Below are positions 49,305 to 55,350 of a DNA stretch of 64,000 nt, in pieces. Below the pieces are notes generated by a model. The model was given only the letters and a program-made list of their open reading frames with translations. It had not been told where the DNA came from and ran no database searches. Origin of the DNA: Streptacidiphilus sp. PB12-B1b (GTDB lineage: Bacteria; Actinomycetota; Actinomycetes; Streptomycetales; Streptomycetaceae); contig NZ_CP048405.1 in NCBI RefSeq assembly GCF_014084125.1, forward strand, positions 2,232,001 to 2,296,000, written 5' to 3'. How positions within the stretch are numbered: the first letter of the stretch is position 1; every line of letters starts with the position of its first letter. The position numbers were made by a program, and so were the translations under genes.

Positions 49305-50354
49305 ATGGCATCAGGCCGACCGGCGGCCGTGCCCGCGCCCCGCCTGTCCGACATCGCCGCCCAGGCGGGGGTGAGCGAGGCCACCGTCTCCCGGGTGTTC
49401 AACGGGAAGGCGGGGGTGTCCGCCACCACCCGGGAGACGGTGCTGGCGGCGCTGGACGTGCTCGGCTACGAGCGCCCGGTACGGCTGCGGCAGCGCAGCG
49501 CCGGGCTGGTCGGCCTGATCATGCCCGAGCTGAACAACCCCATCTTCCCGGCGCTGGCCCAGGTCATCGAGAAGGTGCTGACCCGGCACGGCTACACGCC
49601 GGTGCTCTGCACCCGCACCCCGGGCGGCTCCACCGAGGACGAGCTGGTGGACATGCTGGTGGACCGGGGGGTCACCGGCATCGTCTTCGTCTCCGGCCTG
49701 CACGCCGACACCGCCGCCGACACCGGGCGCTACGCCCGACTGGCCGCGCGGGGTGTGCCGTTCGTGCTGATCAACGGCTACAGCGAGCTGATCCCGGCGC
49801 CGTTCGTCTCCACCGACGACCGGCTGGCGATGCGGATGGCCGTGCAGCACCTGGCCGAACTCGGCCACGAGCGCATCGGCCTGGCCCTGGGCCAGCGCCG
49901 GTTCGTGCCGGTGCTGCGCAAGTTGGAGGGGTTCGCCGCCGCCTGCCGGGACCTCCTGGGCCAGGAGCCGGAGCAGAGCGCGGAGCGGGTCAGGCACACC
50001 CTGTTCAGCGTCGAGGGCGGCCACGCGGCCGCCGCCGGGCTGCTGGAACAGGGCTGCACGGCGGTGGTCTGCGGCAGCGACCTGATGGCCTTCGGCGTGA
50101 TCCGCGCCGTGCGCCAGCACGGGCTGAGCGTCCCGGGGGACGTCTCGGTGGTGGGCTTCGACGACTCGCCGCTGATCGCCTTCGCCGACCCGCCGCTGAC
50201 CACCATCCGCCAGCCGGTCGAGGCCATGGGCGCGGCCGCGGTGGACGCCCTGCTGGAGGAGATCAACGGCAACGGCACGCACCGCGACGAGTTCGTGTTC
50301 CAGCCCGAACTGGTCGTCCGCGGCTCGACCGGAGCCGCCCGCCCGCGCGGCTGA
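49305..50354 (+). CDS. malR: LacI family regulator (MalR-like), copy 1
   Basis: The 349-aa repressor has the N-terminal helix-turn-helix and hinge (RLSDIAAQAGVSEATVSRVF; NGKAGVSATTR) and a periplasmic-binding-protein-like effector domain. The latter ends with VVGFDDSPLIAFADPPLTT, IRQPVEAMGAAAV. It follows aglA by 1 nt, so it is cotranscribed with the mal operon. Its recognition helix is nearly identical to that of the next gene, so both should bind the same operators. In other streptomycetes malR lies upstream of malE, usually as one gene. Confidence 0.88.
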   Translation: MASGRPAAVPAPRLSDIAAQAGVSEATVSRVFNGKAGVSATTRETVLAALDVLGYERPVRLRQRSAGLVGLIMPELNNPIFPALAQVIEKVLTRHGYTPVLCTRTPGGSTEDELVDMLVDRGVTGIVFVSGLHADTAADTGRYARLAARGVPFVLINGYSELIPAPFVSTDDRLAMRMAVQHLAELGHERIGLALGQRRFVPVLRKLEGFAAACRDLLGQEPEQSAERVRHTLFSVEGGHAAAAGLLEQGCTAVVCGSDLMAFGVIRAVRQHGLSVPGDVSVVGFDDSPLIAFADPPLTTIRQPVEAMGAAAVDALLEEINGNGTHRDEFVFQPELVVRGSTGAARPRG

Positions 50355-50477
50355 CCGGGACGACCCGCCGCCCCGGCAGGCGGTGATCGCCGGAAGCTGC
50401 CGTACTGCCCGGTCAGGTTGCCCCCGTGCAATAGTCTTGCCCGGACAGCGAATCCGGCCGACACACGGGACGACTAC

Positions 50478-51503
50478 GTGAACACAGCACGGCTGGCGGA
50501 CATCGCGGCGCAGGCGGGGGTCAGCGAGGCCACCGTCTCCCGCGTGCTGAACGGCAAACCGGGGGTGTCCGCCACCACCCGGCAGATGGTGCTGGCCGCG
50601 CTGGATGTGCTCGGCTACGAGCGCCCGGTACGGCTGCGGCAGCGCAGCGCCGGGCTGATCGGCCTGATCACCCCGGAGCTGAGCAATCCCATCTTCCCGG
50701 CGTTCACGCAGGTCATCGAGCAGGTACTGACCCGGTACGGCTACACGCCGGTGCTGTGCACGCAGACCCCGGGCGGCTCCACCGAGGACGAGCTGGTGGA
50801 GCTGCTGGTCGAGCGCGGGGTCACCGGCATCGTCTTCATCTCCGGTCTGCACGCCGACACCACCGCCGACACCGAGCGCTACGCCCGGCTGAACGGCAAG
50901 GGCGTCCCCTTCGTCATGATCAACGGCTACAGCTCCCGGATCAGCGCCCCCTTCATCTCCCCGGACGACCGTGCGGCCATGCACATGGCCGTGCAGCACC
51001 TCGCCGGGCTCGGCCACGAGCGGATCGGCCTGGCCGTCGGCCCGGCCCGGTTCGTGCCGGTGGAGCGCAAGCTGGAGGGCTTCGCCGACGCCATGGGCAC
51101 CGCCTTCGGGCTGGACGCCGCCGGTGTGGCCGAGCTGGTCCAGCACTCGCTGTTCACCGTGGAGGGCGGCCAGGCCGCCGCCACCGCGCTGCTGGACCGG
51201 GGCTGTACCGCGATCGTCTGTGGCAGCGACCTGATGGCCTTCGGGGCCATCCGCGGCGTCCGCGCCCGGGGGCTGGCCGTGCCCAGGGACGTCTCGGTGG
51301 TGGGTTTCGACGACTCGCCGCTGATCGCCTTCGCCGACCCGCCGCTGACCACCATCCGCCAGCCGGTCGAGGCCATGGGCGCGGCGGCGGTGAACGTCCT
51401 GCTGGAGGAGATCAGCGGCAACCCGGCCCAGCGCGGGGAGTTCGTCTTCCAGCCGGAGCTGGTCGTCCGCGGCTCGACGGCCGCCGCGCCCCCGCGCGGC
51501 TGA
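50478..51503 (+). CDS. LacI family regulator (MalR-like), copy 2
   Basis: The 341-aa regulator is a close tandem paralogue of the upstream gene (RLADIAAQAGVSEATVSRVL). Some stretches are almost identical at DNA level, such as 50146-50250 and 51291-51395, differing at very few bases. That implies recent duplication or gene conversion. The GTG start at 50478 directly precedes the conserved N-terminus; an in-frame TTG-like upstream extension is not convincing. The 123-bp gap contains TTGC-CCCCGT-GCAA (50418-50431), a possible weak operator, so it may have its own promoter. Confidence 0.88.
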   Translation: MNTARLADIAAQAGVSEATVSRVLNGKPGVSATTRQMVLAALDVLGYERPVRLRQRSAGLIGLITPELSNPIFPAFTQVIEQVLTRYGYTPVLCTQTPGGSTEDELVELLVERGVTGIVFISGLHADTTADTERYARLNGKGVPFVMINGYSSRISAPFISPDDRAAMHMAVQHLAGLGHERIGLAVGPARFVPVERKLEGFADAMGTAFGLDAAGVAELVQHSLFTVEGGQAAATALLDRGCTAIVCGSDLMAFGAIRGVRARGLAVPRDVSVVGFDDSPLIAFADPPLTTIRQPVEAMGAAAVNVLLEEISGNPAQRGEFVFQPELVVRGSTAAAPPRG

Positions 51504-52524: not shown

Positions 52525-53141
52525 GTCGGACGATCGTAGGTCATACGTGCGGACACCGGGAGACGGGCTCCCGCTTTGCACGGGTGAACTCCCGACCCTT
52601 TGTCGGTATTTGCCGGGGTTCGCCGGGGATCGGATTCCCATTCCGCCGAACGGCAGTGGCTAAACCTGCGGTCGGCATCCTCTCACCGGCCCCTCACCGG
52701 GCCGGTTTCCCGCACCGGTGGCGCGGAACTGACCCCGCGTCGGCCCCGCTCGCACTGTCCCCGGCCTGCGCAGAGGCTGCGGAGCGCCTGCGCGGGGCCT
52801 GCGGGCGGCCTGTGGCCGGATGGCCGGAACCTTCCGCTGGTGAGCAGCGTCACATAGGTGAGTCGTACAAATGGTTACTGACTGTGTGTTACTGCCGCGT
52901 TCCATGCCGTCGATCTTGCCGCTGACCGCACCGTCGCTGTCGCCCAGGGTCGCGGGCCTGTACCGCTATGTCCGGCTTTGCGAGGTCAGGTCGCGCGTCC
53001 GGAGCGGCAGTTGTCACATGTGGTGAACGCACGTGCACACGCATTGGCAGCTGCACGTGCACCTGCACTGGCGATACCATTACGTGCAGTGAGGCTACCC
53101 GCTGCCTCGCGGAGCACCACTCGCACTTTCGGGAGACACCT
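52525..53141. promoter_or_regulatory. Intergenic region upstream of the DUF397 gene
   Basis: No gene is supported in these 617 bp. The left end holds the chelatase promoter; about 52640-52830 is GC-rich and featureless; 52840-52900 is AT-richer. From 53015 on it holds CACATGTG (53015-53022) and the TGCACGTGCA palindromes listed separately. Confidence 0.5.
53029..53089 (+). promoter_or_regulatory. TGCACGTGCA palindrome cluster, left
   Basis: GCACGTGCAC at 53029-53038, TGCACGTGCA at 53052-53061, CCTGCACTGG at 53062-53071 and ACGTGCAG at 53082-53089 lie 53-113 nt before the DUF397 start, around a possible -10 TACCAT (53075-53080). They are probably operator sites for the XRE regulator of the trio. 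Confidence 0.6.
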
Positions 53142-53378
53142 ATGCGTCGCACGTACAACGGCATGGCTGCCACGGATATAGACGGCGTGGTCTGGCAGAA
53201 GAGCCGCCTGAGCAATTCGCAGGGGCAGTGCGTCGAGTTGGCCCGCCTGGCGGACGGAGACATCGCGGTGCGGAACTCCCGCTTCCCGTCCGGGCCCGCG
53301 CTCATCTACACCCGGGCGGAGATCGCGGCCCTGCTGGACGGGGTCAAGAAAGGCGAGTTCGACCACCTGGCCGAGTGA
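53142..53378 (+). CDS. DUF397 small protein
   Basis: The 78-aa protein has the DUF397 core (VVWQKSRLSNSQGQCVELAR, then GDIAVRNSRFPSGPALIYTR and AEIAALLDGVKKGEFDHLAE). In streptomycetes DUF397 proteins are encoded next to XRE-DUF5753 regulators, for example at the whiJ and bldB-like loci, and are thought to modulate them by direct contact. The ATG follows GGGAG by 6 nt. Its promoter has the same palindromes as the XRE/ATPase divergent region at 54.25 kb. Confidence 0.85.
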   Translation: MRRTYNGMAATDIDGVVWQKSRLSNSQGQCVELARLADGDIAVRNSRFPSGPALIYTRAEIAALLDGVKKGEFDHLAE

Positions 53379-53599
53379 GCGGGGATCCGCCGACGCCCTC
53401 CGGTGGCACCGGGGGGCGCTTGTGAACGGGGGGCCGGTGCGCCGATCCGGTCCGGGCGTGGCGAGTGCGTCCGGGGCGTGGTGCGGGCCGGAACGGGGGC
53501 GGCGGCCCGGGTGCGTGTGCGGGCGTGCACCGGGGCCCGTGCGGGCGCTGACGGTACGGCGGGGGCCGGGTCCGTCCGGACGGCCGCCCTGTCGTGCCG

Positions 53600-54127
53600 T
53601 CAGCCCTCCCCGCCGGACAGGTCGAACAGGGCCCAGACCACCTTGCCGGCGGCTACGGGGTGCCAGCCCCAGGACTGGCTGAAGGAGTCCACCAGGTGCA
53701 GTCCCCGGCCGGACTCGGCGATGAAGTCCGCCTCCCGGGCGACCGGGCCGCTGGTGCTCGGGTCGCTCACCGCGCAGACCACCTGCGGCGACCGCCGGAC
53801 CAGGCTGAGGCGTATCAGTGCGGACGGCGTGTGGCTGGCGTCCAGCTGCTGGTTGATCGGGTCCTGCGCGCCTCTGCGCCCCCAACAGCTGGTCCGCTGC
53901 GCCGGCGCCTGCGCGGCGGCCGGCCCGAGCGCGTGCCGCAGCGCATTGGTCACCAACTCGCTCGCCACCAGCGCGATGTCGTCGAAGAGATCGGTGAGCT
54001 GCCAGCGGTTGAGCGTGAGCTTGGTGAACTCCCGGGCGGTGCGCACCGACTCATGGCGTGGCGCGAGCGCGCAGCTGACCACGTCGGAGTCGGTGGCCAC
54101 GGCGGCCACCGTCGAGCTCGGGCTCAT
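53600..54127 (-). CDS. RsbW/SpoIIAB-like ATP-binding protein
   Basis: The 175-aa protein is a small GHKL ATPase like streptomycete anti-sigma-type kinases. It has the N box ALVASELVTNALRHA and the G box ESGRGLHLVDSFSQSWGW. No membrane or sensor domain is present. The ATG at 54127 follows GGGAGGAG; longer upstream extension is not credible because it runs through the palindrome region. It is divergent from the XRE gene. Such ATPases are often paired with XRE-DUF5753 and DUF397 genes in morphological control loci; the target is unknown. Confidence 0.82.
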   Translation of the reverse strand: MSPSSTVAAVATDSDVVSCALAPRHESVRTAREFTKLTLNRWQLTDLFDDIALVASELVTNALRHALGPAAAQAPAQRTSCWGRRGAQDPINQQLDASHTPSALIRLSLVRRSPQVVCAVSDPSTSGPVAREADFIAESGRGLHLVDSFSQSWGWHPVAAGKVVWALFDLSGGEG

Positions 54128-54483
54128 GAAGAGCTCCTCCCATAAAGGCGCTGCGACGCCTGTCACCGCCTCGTCCCCGAAGGGCGCACGAGGCGGAAGA
54201 TCGGCGTGGCACGAGGGGGGAGCGTGGTCCCCGCAGGACTGCCAGTGGGCGTGCAGGTGCACGTGCACCATGGTCCTCTTCGCATACGTCAGATGCAAGA
54301 GTGGATTCACGTGCATGTGCGCGGAAGGCAGATGCACGTGCATCTGCGTATGCACGGAGTAGTCTTCCGGTAGCACGCAGCAGCAGTCGCGGACCCGAGG
54401 GCACCGTCGTGCCTGTACATGCACCCTTCGGGGCCGGTTAGTGGCAGACTGTGCGCTGAATTCCAGGGTGGAGGTTCAACGGA
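54128..54483. promoter_or_regulatory. Divergent ATPase / XRE promoter region with palindrome array
   Basis: In this 356-bp gap TGCACGTGCA-type sites recur. GGTGCACGTGCACC (54256-54269) is a perfect 14-bp palindrome; ACGTGCATGT is at 54309-54318. GCAGATGCACGTGCATCTGC (54328-54347) is a perfect 20-bp palindrome. Partial sites are at 54350-54355 and 54415-54424. The density suggests cooperative binding, most simply by the adjacent XRE protein. Confidence 0.6.
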
Positions 54484-55350
54484 ATGACCACAGTTCAGCC
54501 GGGGAGCGGCTCGATGGTGCGCCGGATCCTCCTCGGCTCCCAGTTGCGCCGGCTCCGTGAGGGCAAGGGCATCACACGCGAGGACGCGGGCTACACGATC
54601 CGTGCCTCCGAGTCCAAGATCAGCCGCATGGAACTCGGGCGCGTCAGCTTCAAGGAGCGTGACGTGACGGACCTGCTCAGCCTGTACGGGGTCGAGGACG
54701 AGACCGAGCGCGCCGCGCTGCTGACGCTGGTGCGCGAGGCCAACCAGGCCGGTTGGTGGCACAGCTTCAGCGACGCCATGCCCAACTGGTTCCAGACCTA
54801 CGTCGGCCTGGAGGAGGCGTCCGCGCTCATCCGGCTCTACGAGGTCCAGTTCGTCCCCGGGCTGCTGCAGACCGAGGACTACATGCGCTCGCTGATGACG
54901 CTGAACCGCCCCAACCTGGACCGCACCGAGGTCGACCGCCGGATCAACGTCCGGATGCACCGGCAGAAGCTGGTCGAGGACGCCGAGGGCCCCCGGCTGT
55001 GGGCCATCGTGGACGAAGCCGCGCTGCGCCGCCCGGTCGGCGGCCCCACCGTGATGCGCGCGCAGATCCAGCGGCTGATCGAGGCCGCCGACATGCCCAA
55101 CGTCATCCTCCAGGTCATGCCGTTCCGCTTCGGCGGCCACGCGGCCGAGAGCGGCGCCTTCACCATCCTGCGCTTCCCCGAGCAGGACCTGCCGGACGTG
55201 GTCTACCTGGAGCAGCTCACCAGCGCCCTCTACCTGGACAAGCGCGACGACGTCGACCAGTACCTCCAGGTGATGGAGCGGCTCAGCGTCGACAGCCAGA
55301 CCCCCGCCAGCAGCGTCGAGCTGCTCAGCGAGATGCTCAAGGAGTCCTGA
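54484..55350 (+). CDS. XRE family regulator with DUF5753 domain
   Basis: The 288-aa WhiJ-type regulator has an N-terminal helix-turn-helix (QLRRLREGKGITREDAGYTI and ASESKISRMELGR) and the DUF5753 ligand/partner domain (VQFVPGLLQTEDYMRSLM; VILQVMPFRFGGH; FPDVVYLEQL-like end). The ATG has GGAGG upstream. With the DUF397 and ATPase genes it forms a trio found in many copies in streptomycetes and linked to development. The 3' end overlaps the convergent TetR gene by 14 nt. Confidence 0.9.
   Translation: MTTVQPGSGSMVRRILLGSQLRRLREGKGITREDAGYTIRASESKISRMELGRVSFKERDVTDLLSLYGVEDETERAALLTLVREANQAGWWHSFSDAMPNWFQTYVGLEEASALIRLYEVQFVPGLLQTEDYMRSLMTLNRPNLDRTEVDRRINVRMHRQKLVEDAEGPRLWAIVDEAALRRPVGGPTVMRAQIQRLIEAADMPNVILQVMPFRFGGHAAESGAFTILRFPEQDLPDVVYLEQLTSALYLDKRDDVDQYLQVMERLSVDSQTPASSVELLSEMLKES

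Follow-up and report, generated by a model that had tools for sequence, protein, structure and literature searches.

The locus and its features

The stretch of DNA considered here is 64,000 nucleotides long (Streptacidiphilus sp. PB12-B1b, contig NZ_CP048405.1, positions 2,232,001 to 2,296,000; hereafter the window) and carries perfect palindromes with the common core TGCACGTGCA around three genes, which encode a DUF397 protein, an ATPase and a regulator of the XRE family (hereafter XRE). The DUF397 and ATPase genes converge, and the XRE gene points away from the ATPase gene. An earlier note on this DNA had described the palindromes, named the trio and proposed, as the simplest reading, that the XRE protein autoregulates and controls its two partners. 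The naming of the trio agrees with the family matches (PF04149, PF13581, and HTH_31 plus DUF5753). Indeed, the regulator has the architecture of WhiJ-like XRE-DUF5753 proteins, with an N-terminal helix-turn-helix (HTH) and a C-terminal DUF5753 domain (PF13560 and PF19054, over cut-off), and it is adjoined by DUF397 and AbaA-like genes (PF04149, PF13581), as in a WhiJ-like neighbourhood. The promoter boxes listed below are putative, consensus-based assignments that were sought after viewing the sequences, and the counts of promoter geometry are descriptive.

53028..53068: DUF397 operator array of hexamers in a 6-bp register, with exact TGCACGTGCA at 53052-53061 (copy 1, upstream of the DUF397 gene) and one-mismatch copies at 53028 and 53058
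53075..53080, + strand: putative DUF397 -10 box TACCAT, 13 bp past the exact operator
53142..53378, + strand: DUF397 (BldB-like) protein, 78 amino acids (PF04149, 2.3e-18), in the same place in 165 loci
53600..54127, - strand: AbaA-like HATPase_c_2 protein (PF13581, 4.3e-10)
54252..54269: operator TGCAGGTGCACGTGCACC, adjoining the putative -10/start of the ATPase gene; its exact core at 54258-54267 (copy 2) lies within the 14-bp perfect palindrome GGTGCACGTGCACC, 54256-54269
54270..54298, - strand: putative ATPase-gene promoter, TTGCAT (54293-54298), 17 bp, GACCAT (54270-54275)
54306..54315: operator TTCACGTGCA, 7 bp upstream of the putative ATPase-gene -35, a placement common across genera
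54328..54347: 20-bp perfect palindrome GCAGATGCACGTGCATCTGC, upstream operator of the ATPase gene, with exact TGCACGTGCA at 54333-54342 (copy 3)
54442..54450, + strand: putative XRE -10 region TGGCAGACT, 95 bp downstream of the nearest operator
54484..55350, + strand: XRE/WhiJ-like regulator, HTH_31 plus DUF5753, 288 amino acids (PF19054, 2.8e-58; PF13560, 3.9e-15)

The three exact copies of TGCACGTGCA compare with a mean of 0.12 and a maximum of 1 in 100 dinucleotide shuffles of the window, and they stand where the earlier note had placed its perfect palindromes. With up to one mismatch the window holds 12 copies (3.06 expected), 7 of them at the trio locus, and all 5 copies of TGCANNTGCA fall there (0.60 expected). 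The sites form two groups, one upstream of DUF397 and the other in the divergent ATPase/XRE intergenic region, where TTCACGTGCA at 54306-54315 is the window's equivalent of the ATPase operator and has exact palindromes on both sides; a second exact core at the same 75-bp distance also occurs in L063, L064 and L065. The near-copies reported in the same note do exist, but several do not count as separate sites, since TGCANN-like hexamers stand in register in both regions and produce copies overlapping at 6-bp offsets.

Conservation of the site

Loci were gathered by similarity to the XRE protein only. After removal of a locus with a broken frame (L075) and of six remoter paralogues (L076-L081), 193 of the 200 loci (L062-L261) remained, with an XRE match of at least 320 bits. 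DUF397 and ATPase genes both lie upstream of XRE on the expected strands in 187 of these 193; L084, L094, L096, L106, L114 and L115 were left uncounted for missing synteny, and four of them are the rearranged clusters described below. A 12-mer redundancy filter reduced the 187 loci to 171, and setting aside six with another gene order gave 165; counts based on 171 include these six. Counts based on 159 concern those of the 165 with at least 120 nt of sequence before DUF397.

The exact TGCACGTGCA is present in the ATPase-XRE intergenic region of all 165 non-redundant Streptomycetaceae loci and upstream of DUF397 in 151 of 159 (158 with one mismatch allowed), while the coding parts contain it in a single locus of the 165 (253 kb of coding DNA). 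It ranks first among the 1024 palindromic 10-mers, the runner-up occurring in 22 of the 165 loci. A class-wide draw of 148 genomes gave 39 with a match, 28 of them outside the family; loci were taken from 19 of these 28, and 16 of the 19 XRE loci from other families have the exact site within the 3.8 kb examined. Symmetry mostly does not extend past 10 bp: 155 of 189 exact cores in the intergenic region and 160 of 171 before DUF397 end there. The palindromes are a deeply conserved operator set of this gene cluster in Streptomyces-like bacteria, and their distribution over both promoters is consistent with the specific binding system that had been suspected from the window.

An extra TGCACGTGCA was found in the convergent DUF397-ATPase spacer of 16 of the 165 loci (L135, L179, L182-L184, L187-L191, L197, L200, L203, L205, L207 and L211). 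In most of those inspected, this copy directly precedes a terminator-like hairpin.

Promoters probably served by the sites

The promoters of the ATPase and DUF397 genes have a consensus in common, with the same orientation relative to transcription; it reads approximately CGTGCACGTGCATCTGC.C.TGCATC. An operator with at most one mismatch stands 7 bp before [AT]TGCRT, the presumed -35, in 159 of 171 ATPase promoters and in 75 of 171 DUF397 promoters; an operator with a 7-bp gap and a -35-like hexamer facing XRE was found in none of the 171 loci. The full ATPase geometry, which includes a -10-like RASCAT, occurs in 128 of 165 loci, its spacer being 17 bp in 124 of these, and on the XRE-facing strand in none of the 165. 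For DUF397, the full geometry with TAYSAT was counted in 65 of 159 loci, and in 152 of 159 TAYSAT follows an operator with at most one mismatch by no more than 45 bp. The XRE gene has its own -10-like element, TGGCAGANT, in 156 of 165 loci, and the nearest operator lies a median of 124 bp (55-244) upstream of it.

Rearrangement separates the two promoters that share the intergenic region. In four clusters from two other genera, XRE and the ATPase gene no longer share an intergenic region, and exact sites stand before DUF397 in all four, before the ATPase gene in all four and within 400 bp upstream of XRE in none. Likewise, in six loci from other families (L309-L313 and L315) the first 1 kb upstream of XRE is free of the site. 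To judge from these placements, the sites belong more readily to the DUF397 and ATPase promoters than to that of XRE, and direct control of the XRE gene by them is improbable in the window's gene order. Control of the two partners, as proposed in the earlier note, is the better supported part, operators being present at both promoters, whereas direct autoregulation as its simplest reading is not supported, considering the distance to the XRE -10-like box and the lack of an XRE site in the rearranged clusters.

Between the operator and the XRE start, Streptomyces loci carry a conserved block, GTAATCGAATGAGTACGGG...TTTTGGTGGCAGA, which may be the site of another regulator of XRE.

The phased TGCA array

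Upstream of DUF397 in the window, GCA recurs seven times in 6-bp steps (53029, 53035, 53041, 53047, 53053, 53059 and 53065). Among the loci, TGCA pairs at lags of 6, 12, 18, 24 and 30 bp number 230, 184, 185, 102 and 41 before DUF397 and 246, 208, 191, 34 and 29 in the intergenic region, against 1.3-2.2 in shuffles; lag 6 is partly built into the 10-mer, and the longer lags are not, though they are affected by common descent. Off-register lags are mostly close to zero, the clearest exceptions being lag 7 (41) before DUF397 and, in the intergenic region, lags 21 (33) and 39 (54). The same lags are prominent in genera besides Streptomyces. The gap from the operator to the DUF397 -10-like box also takes preferred values (n=159): 30-31 bp in 92 loci, 6-7 bp in 31, 42-44 bp in 15, 12-13 bp in 8 and 18 bp in 4, with 2 other gaps and 7 loci in which no box was found. 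Given this recurrence at multiples of 6 bp and the fixed -10 gaps, TGCACGTGCA looks like two adjacent units of a phased array.

Candidate binder of the site

The recognition helix of the XRE protein in the 165 site-bearing loci is IRASESKISR(M/L)ELGRV in 163 and IRGSESKISRMELGRV (IRGSESK type) in 2. A second group is provided by the 30 best-scoring matches of the model NF058600 (L032-L061, all from one genus, g9; hereafter group B), whose helix is of LRVAP type in 30 of 30 loci (LHVAP in 2); the L032 protein is 45% identical to the window XRE. TGCACGTGCA occurs in none of the 30 group B loci. Instead, a dyad CACTCTG-N7-CAGAGTG (CACTCTGAAATTTTCAGAGTG in L032, for example) lies upstream of XRE in 28 of 30, 81-330 bp from the start of the XRE match, and ACACTTGGCAAG is conserved upstream in 28 of 30. 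This dyad, which was spotted by eye and then counted, and which escaped a scan for perfect palindromic 10-mers common to the loci, is a candidate operator of group B and possibly that of SCO1979.

To the initial set, 40 further XRE matches were added from part of a longer match list. Sixteen fetched clusters with a DUF397 neighbour, a sample of those that exist, show a second gene order (ATPase <- -> DUF397 -> XRE), mostly with SHAK-type helices, and 8 of the 16 have the exact site before DUF397. At the other 15 DUF5753 loci of the window's genome, no exact TGCACGTGCA was found in the stretches examined.

A TetR regulator adjacent to the cluster was considered as the binder and rejected: it has no relative in any of the 80 named Streptomyces loci (the best 80 of at least 563), all of which have the site. 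Given the co-variation of site and recognition helix and the exclusion of the TetR neighbour, the XRE protein is most likely the binder of TGCACGTGCA, as far as sequence comparison can tell. Searches for solved structures related by sequence returned none for XRE (up to E 0.01) and none for DUF397 (up to E 1), and the structure model of the XRE protein has a mean predicted local distance difference test score of 58, too poor for use. Further upstream in the window, two tandem, closely similar open reading frames (ORFs) for LacI-type regulators were recognised by eye from the translation (49305-50354 and 50418-51503); the first has no relative around the cluster in the 80 named Streptomyces loci.

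Genome-wide distribution

The genome of the window contains 16 copies of TGCACGTGCA and 11 of a control pattern, and 20 genomes together contain 242 against 338, the control for the 20 being a single pattern, the motif read backwards. The 13 copies outside the cluster comprise 10 in ORFs with a coding-type G+C content at third codon positions, 2 that look coding by eye and 1 ambiguous; the third-position rule may overcall, as it also assigned 2 of the 3 cluster copies to an ORF, because the ATPase frame is open upstream of its start. One genome (G003) has only three copies, all of them the cluster's own. With a profile built from 61 sites, this cluster is the only one in the genome below E 0.1; 150 candidates were scored per genome, the E-values are rough and the building sites match by construction. 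The genome-wide motif search suggested in the earlier note thus speaks against a broad regulon, which is rejected on present evidence: beyond the cluster, TGCACGTGCA is not enriched over the control, and 12 of 13 copies look coding.

In a species of the same genus (G030:C3), two copies of TGCACGTGCA spaced by 24 bp lie upstream of an ORF resembling VOC/glyoxalase proteins, named by eye (L282:4001-4034). This ORF may be an extra target that was recruited.

Proposed mechanism and alternative explanations

We consider it quite probable that the palindromes act locally as dedicated operators for a cluster of the WhiJ/BldB/AbaA type, the XRE-DUF5753 protein binding TGCACGTGCA at the DUF397 and ATPase promoters. 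It would do so within the 6-bp-phased TGCA arrays at the DUF397 promoter and the divergent ATPase promoter, and the DUF397 and ATPase genes would therefore answer to one protein. By analogy with WhiJ9 and with WhiJ and SCO4542, XRE would set the expression of both genes and DUF397 would feed back on XRE. Statements taken from the literature, here and below, refer to the portions of each paper that were covered. SCO4542 is proposed to keep WhiJ off DNA (Ainsa 2010, as cited in PMC6262351). From repeats that precede iosA, WhiJ9 activates this gene, and abaA paralogues rise when BldB is lost (PMC10294661). Activation of the ATPase gene is narrowly favoured over repression because the operator stands just upstream of its -35; in the window's genus repression is the easier reading, since additional sites there overlap both the -10/start of the ATPase gene and the -35 region of DUF397.

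A more far-reaching version is offered as tentative. The operator would be a phased array running into the promoter, on which XRE dimers, perhaps with oligomers of the BldB-type DUF397 protein, assemble side by side in a register fixed relative to the promoter. Such an array would be an ancient cis-code in several actinobacterial families, shared in part with a second paralogous cluster (cross-talk), and a sister subfamily would have switched both helix and dyad.

Several observations weigh against dedicated operators of this kind. The 165 loci are mostly from Streptomyces, the rest belonging to the window's genus and several further genera, and they are not independent. The exact site is missing from 8 of 159 DUF397 promoters, at 3 of 19 XRE loci of other families, in the other 8 of the 16 clusters with the second gene order and at four solo paralogues that have a SESK-type helix and no DUF397 or ATPase matches (L288-L290, L300). 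The copies in the convergent spacer of 16 of the 165 loci are not accounted for by this reading. WhiJ9, the sole WhiJ paralogue for which a mapped site was found, binds direct repeats and no palindrome (PMC10294661). Finally, a site stands 79-157 bp upstream of XRE in 6 of the 19 other-family loci (L316-L320, L322); four loci of family f17 have it 126-157 bp upstream, with DUF397 directly after XRE, and L317 has it 79 bp upstream, with DUF397 located elsewhere. Because of L317 and the four f17 loci, control of XRE itself is possible in some lineages.

The six other-family loci with a site close upstream of XRE speak for the nearest alternative, which we regard as unlikely: that the XRE protein binds the sites chiefly for autoregulation, DUF397 and ATPase being further targets. 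Autoregulation is common among XRE regulators (SCO1979 is among those cited in PMC12565409), loss of WhiJ9 raised whiJ9 RNA twofold (PMC10294661), and the ATPase-XRE intergenic region is shared. Against it stand the median distance between operator and XRE -10-like box and the absence of sites upstream of XRE in the four rearranged clusters and in L309-L313 and L315.

Another widely conserved regulator might bind the sites, with XRE merely a neighbour. SCO3424 is listed as a sigma-E target (PMC6767563), as is SCO3423 under ethanol stress (PMC10771440), and other inputs therefore exist at the locus; the XRE upstream region, moreover, has its own conserved block. However, the site tracks the XRE, DUF397 and ATPase genes through rearrangement, the second gene order and family boundaries, it co-varies with the XRE helix, genome-wide it is no commoner than one control pattern, and the TetR neighbour is excluded, which makes binding by a third party rather improbable.

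We give very little weight to the operator of a type II toxin-antitoxin pair, with XRE as antitoxin and DUF397 as toxin: such pairs have been predicted (PMC6262351, PMC10364602), but here a third gene and more than 1 kb separate DUF397 from XRE, so that the two are not an adjacent pair, and DUF397 is preceded by an upstream region of its own. Least credible is a structural DNA or RNA element (terminator, recombination or methylation site) instead of an operator, for although the dyads are perfect and the spacer copies mostly lie beside a terminator-like hairpin, the sites keep fixed distances from promoter hexamers, are nearly absent from coding DNA and mostly lose their symmetry past 10 bp.

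Comparison with known systems

The window XRE passes the curated cut-off of NF058600 (411.5 against 350 bits) and has the same domains as SCO1979. The orthology with SCO1979 that this NCBIfam label would imply is set aside because group B has another helix and, in place of TGCACGTGCA, a dyad of its own; NF058600 spans several groups, at least two. Judged from published features rather than from the S. coelicolor sequence, the cluster is most likely the orthologue of SCO3421-SCO3424, since the TTA codon, a sigma-E site in one locus and the gene order point that way, and the DUF397 gene of the window would, by inference, be the counterpart of SCO3424.

By homology, the ATPase gene may start at GTG 54166, upstream of the ATG at 54127, which would place a TTA (54143-54145) at codon 8; this triplet is coding only if translation begins at 54166. 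In the upstream-extended frame, a TTA codon lies near the ATPase gene start in 152 of 165 loci, in 151 of them immediately before the segment with homology to the window protein. A TTA codon would add translational control through the bldA tRNA, and its conservation suggests bldA-dependent translation of the AbaA-like gene. The likeness to SCO3423 rests on the same codon, present in 12 of 14 orthologues (PMC4255298, Table 2). The sigma-E site printed for sco3424 (PMC6767563) was found, among the loci scanned, upstream of DUF397 in L245 only (2 mismatches in 29; the next best has 8). As in the window, where no DUF397 gene directly follows XRE, SCO3421 is absent from the 15 XRE-DUF397 pairs of Table 1 in PMC10364602. 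Nothing on the function of SCO3421 itself was found in the portions covered of the literature naming these loci, PMC1934918 being outside that scope.

In the literature covered, TGCACGTGCA was not found for Streptomyces, and GCACGTGC combined with Streptomyces binding sites returned only titles that look unrelated (alpha-glucans, uronate dehydrogenase). The earlier statement that no described regulator has this site fits this search, whose scope left out Zhu et al. 2020 (on the paralogue SCO1979) and the motif tables of PMC12565409, a survey of 223 XRE motif clusters.

WhiJ (SCO4543) and SCO4542 comprise the same gene types, and there too the DUF397 protein is proposed to hold the XRE protein off its operator (Ainsa 2010, as cited in PMC6262351); the literature text covered gives no operator sequence for WhiJ. 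The WhiJ9-BldB9-IosA system of S. venezuelae likewise has a WhiJ-like regulator beside a BldB paralogue and a site in the divergent intergenic region before the target gene, but WhiJ9 binds three direct repeats CGXXCTCAAC (PMC10294661), in contrast to the TGCA units in 6-bp register described here; CGXXCTCAAC has 8 matches in the window and none within 53000-54500.

Streptomyces species have many WhiJ/BldB/AbaA clusters, which influence development and antibiotic production, and the only mapped operators for such clusters in the portions of the literature covered are those of WhiJ9. This kind of system is therefore known; the operator, its targets and its depth appear to be new, a prior description being possible. 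The placement of the site argues for two promoters as those governed, those of the BldB-like and AbaA-like partners rather than that of the regulator's own gene (in this gene order), and two recognition helices are paired with two different operators.

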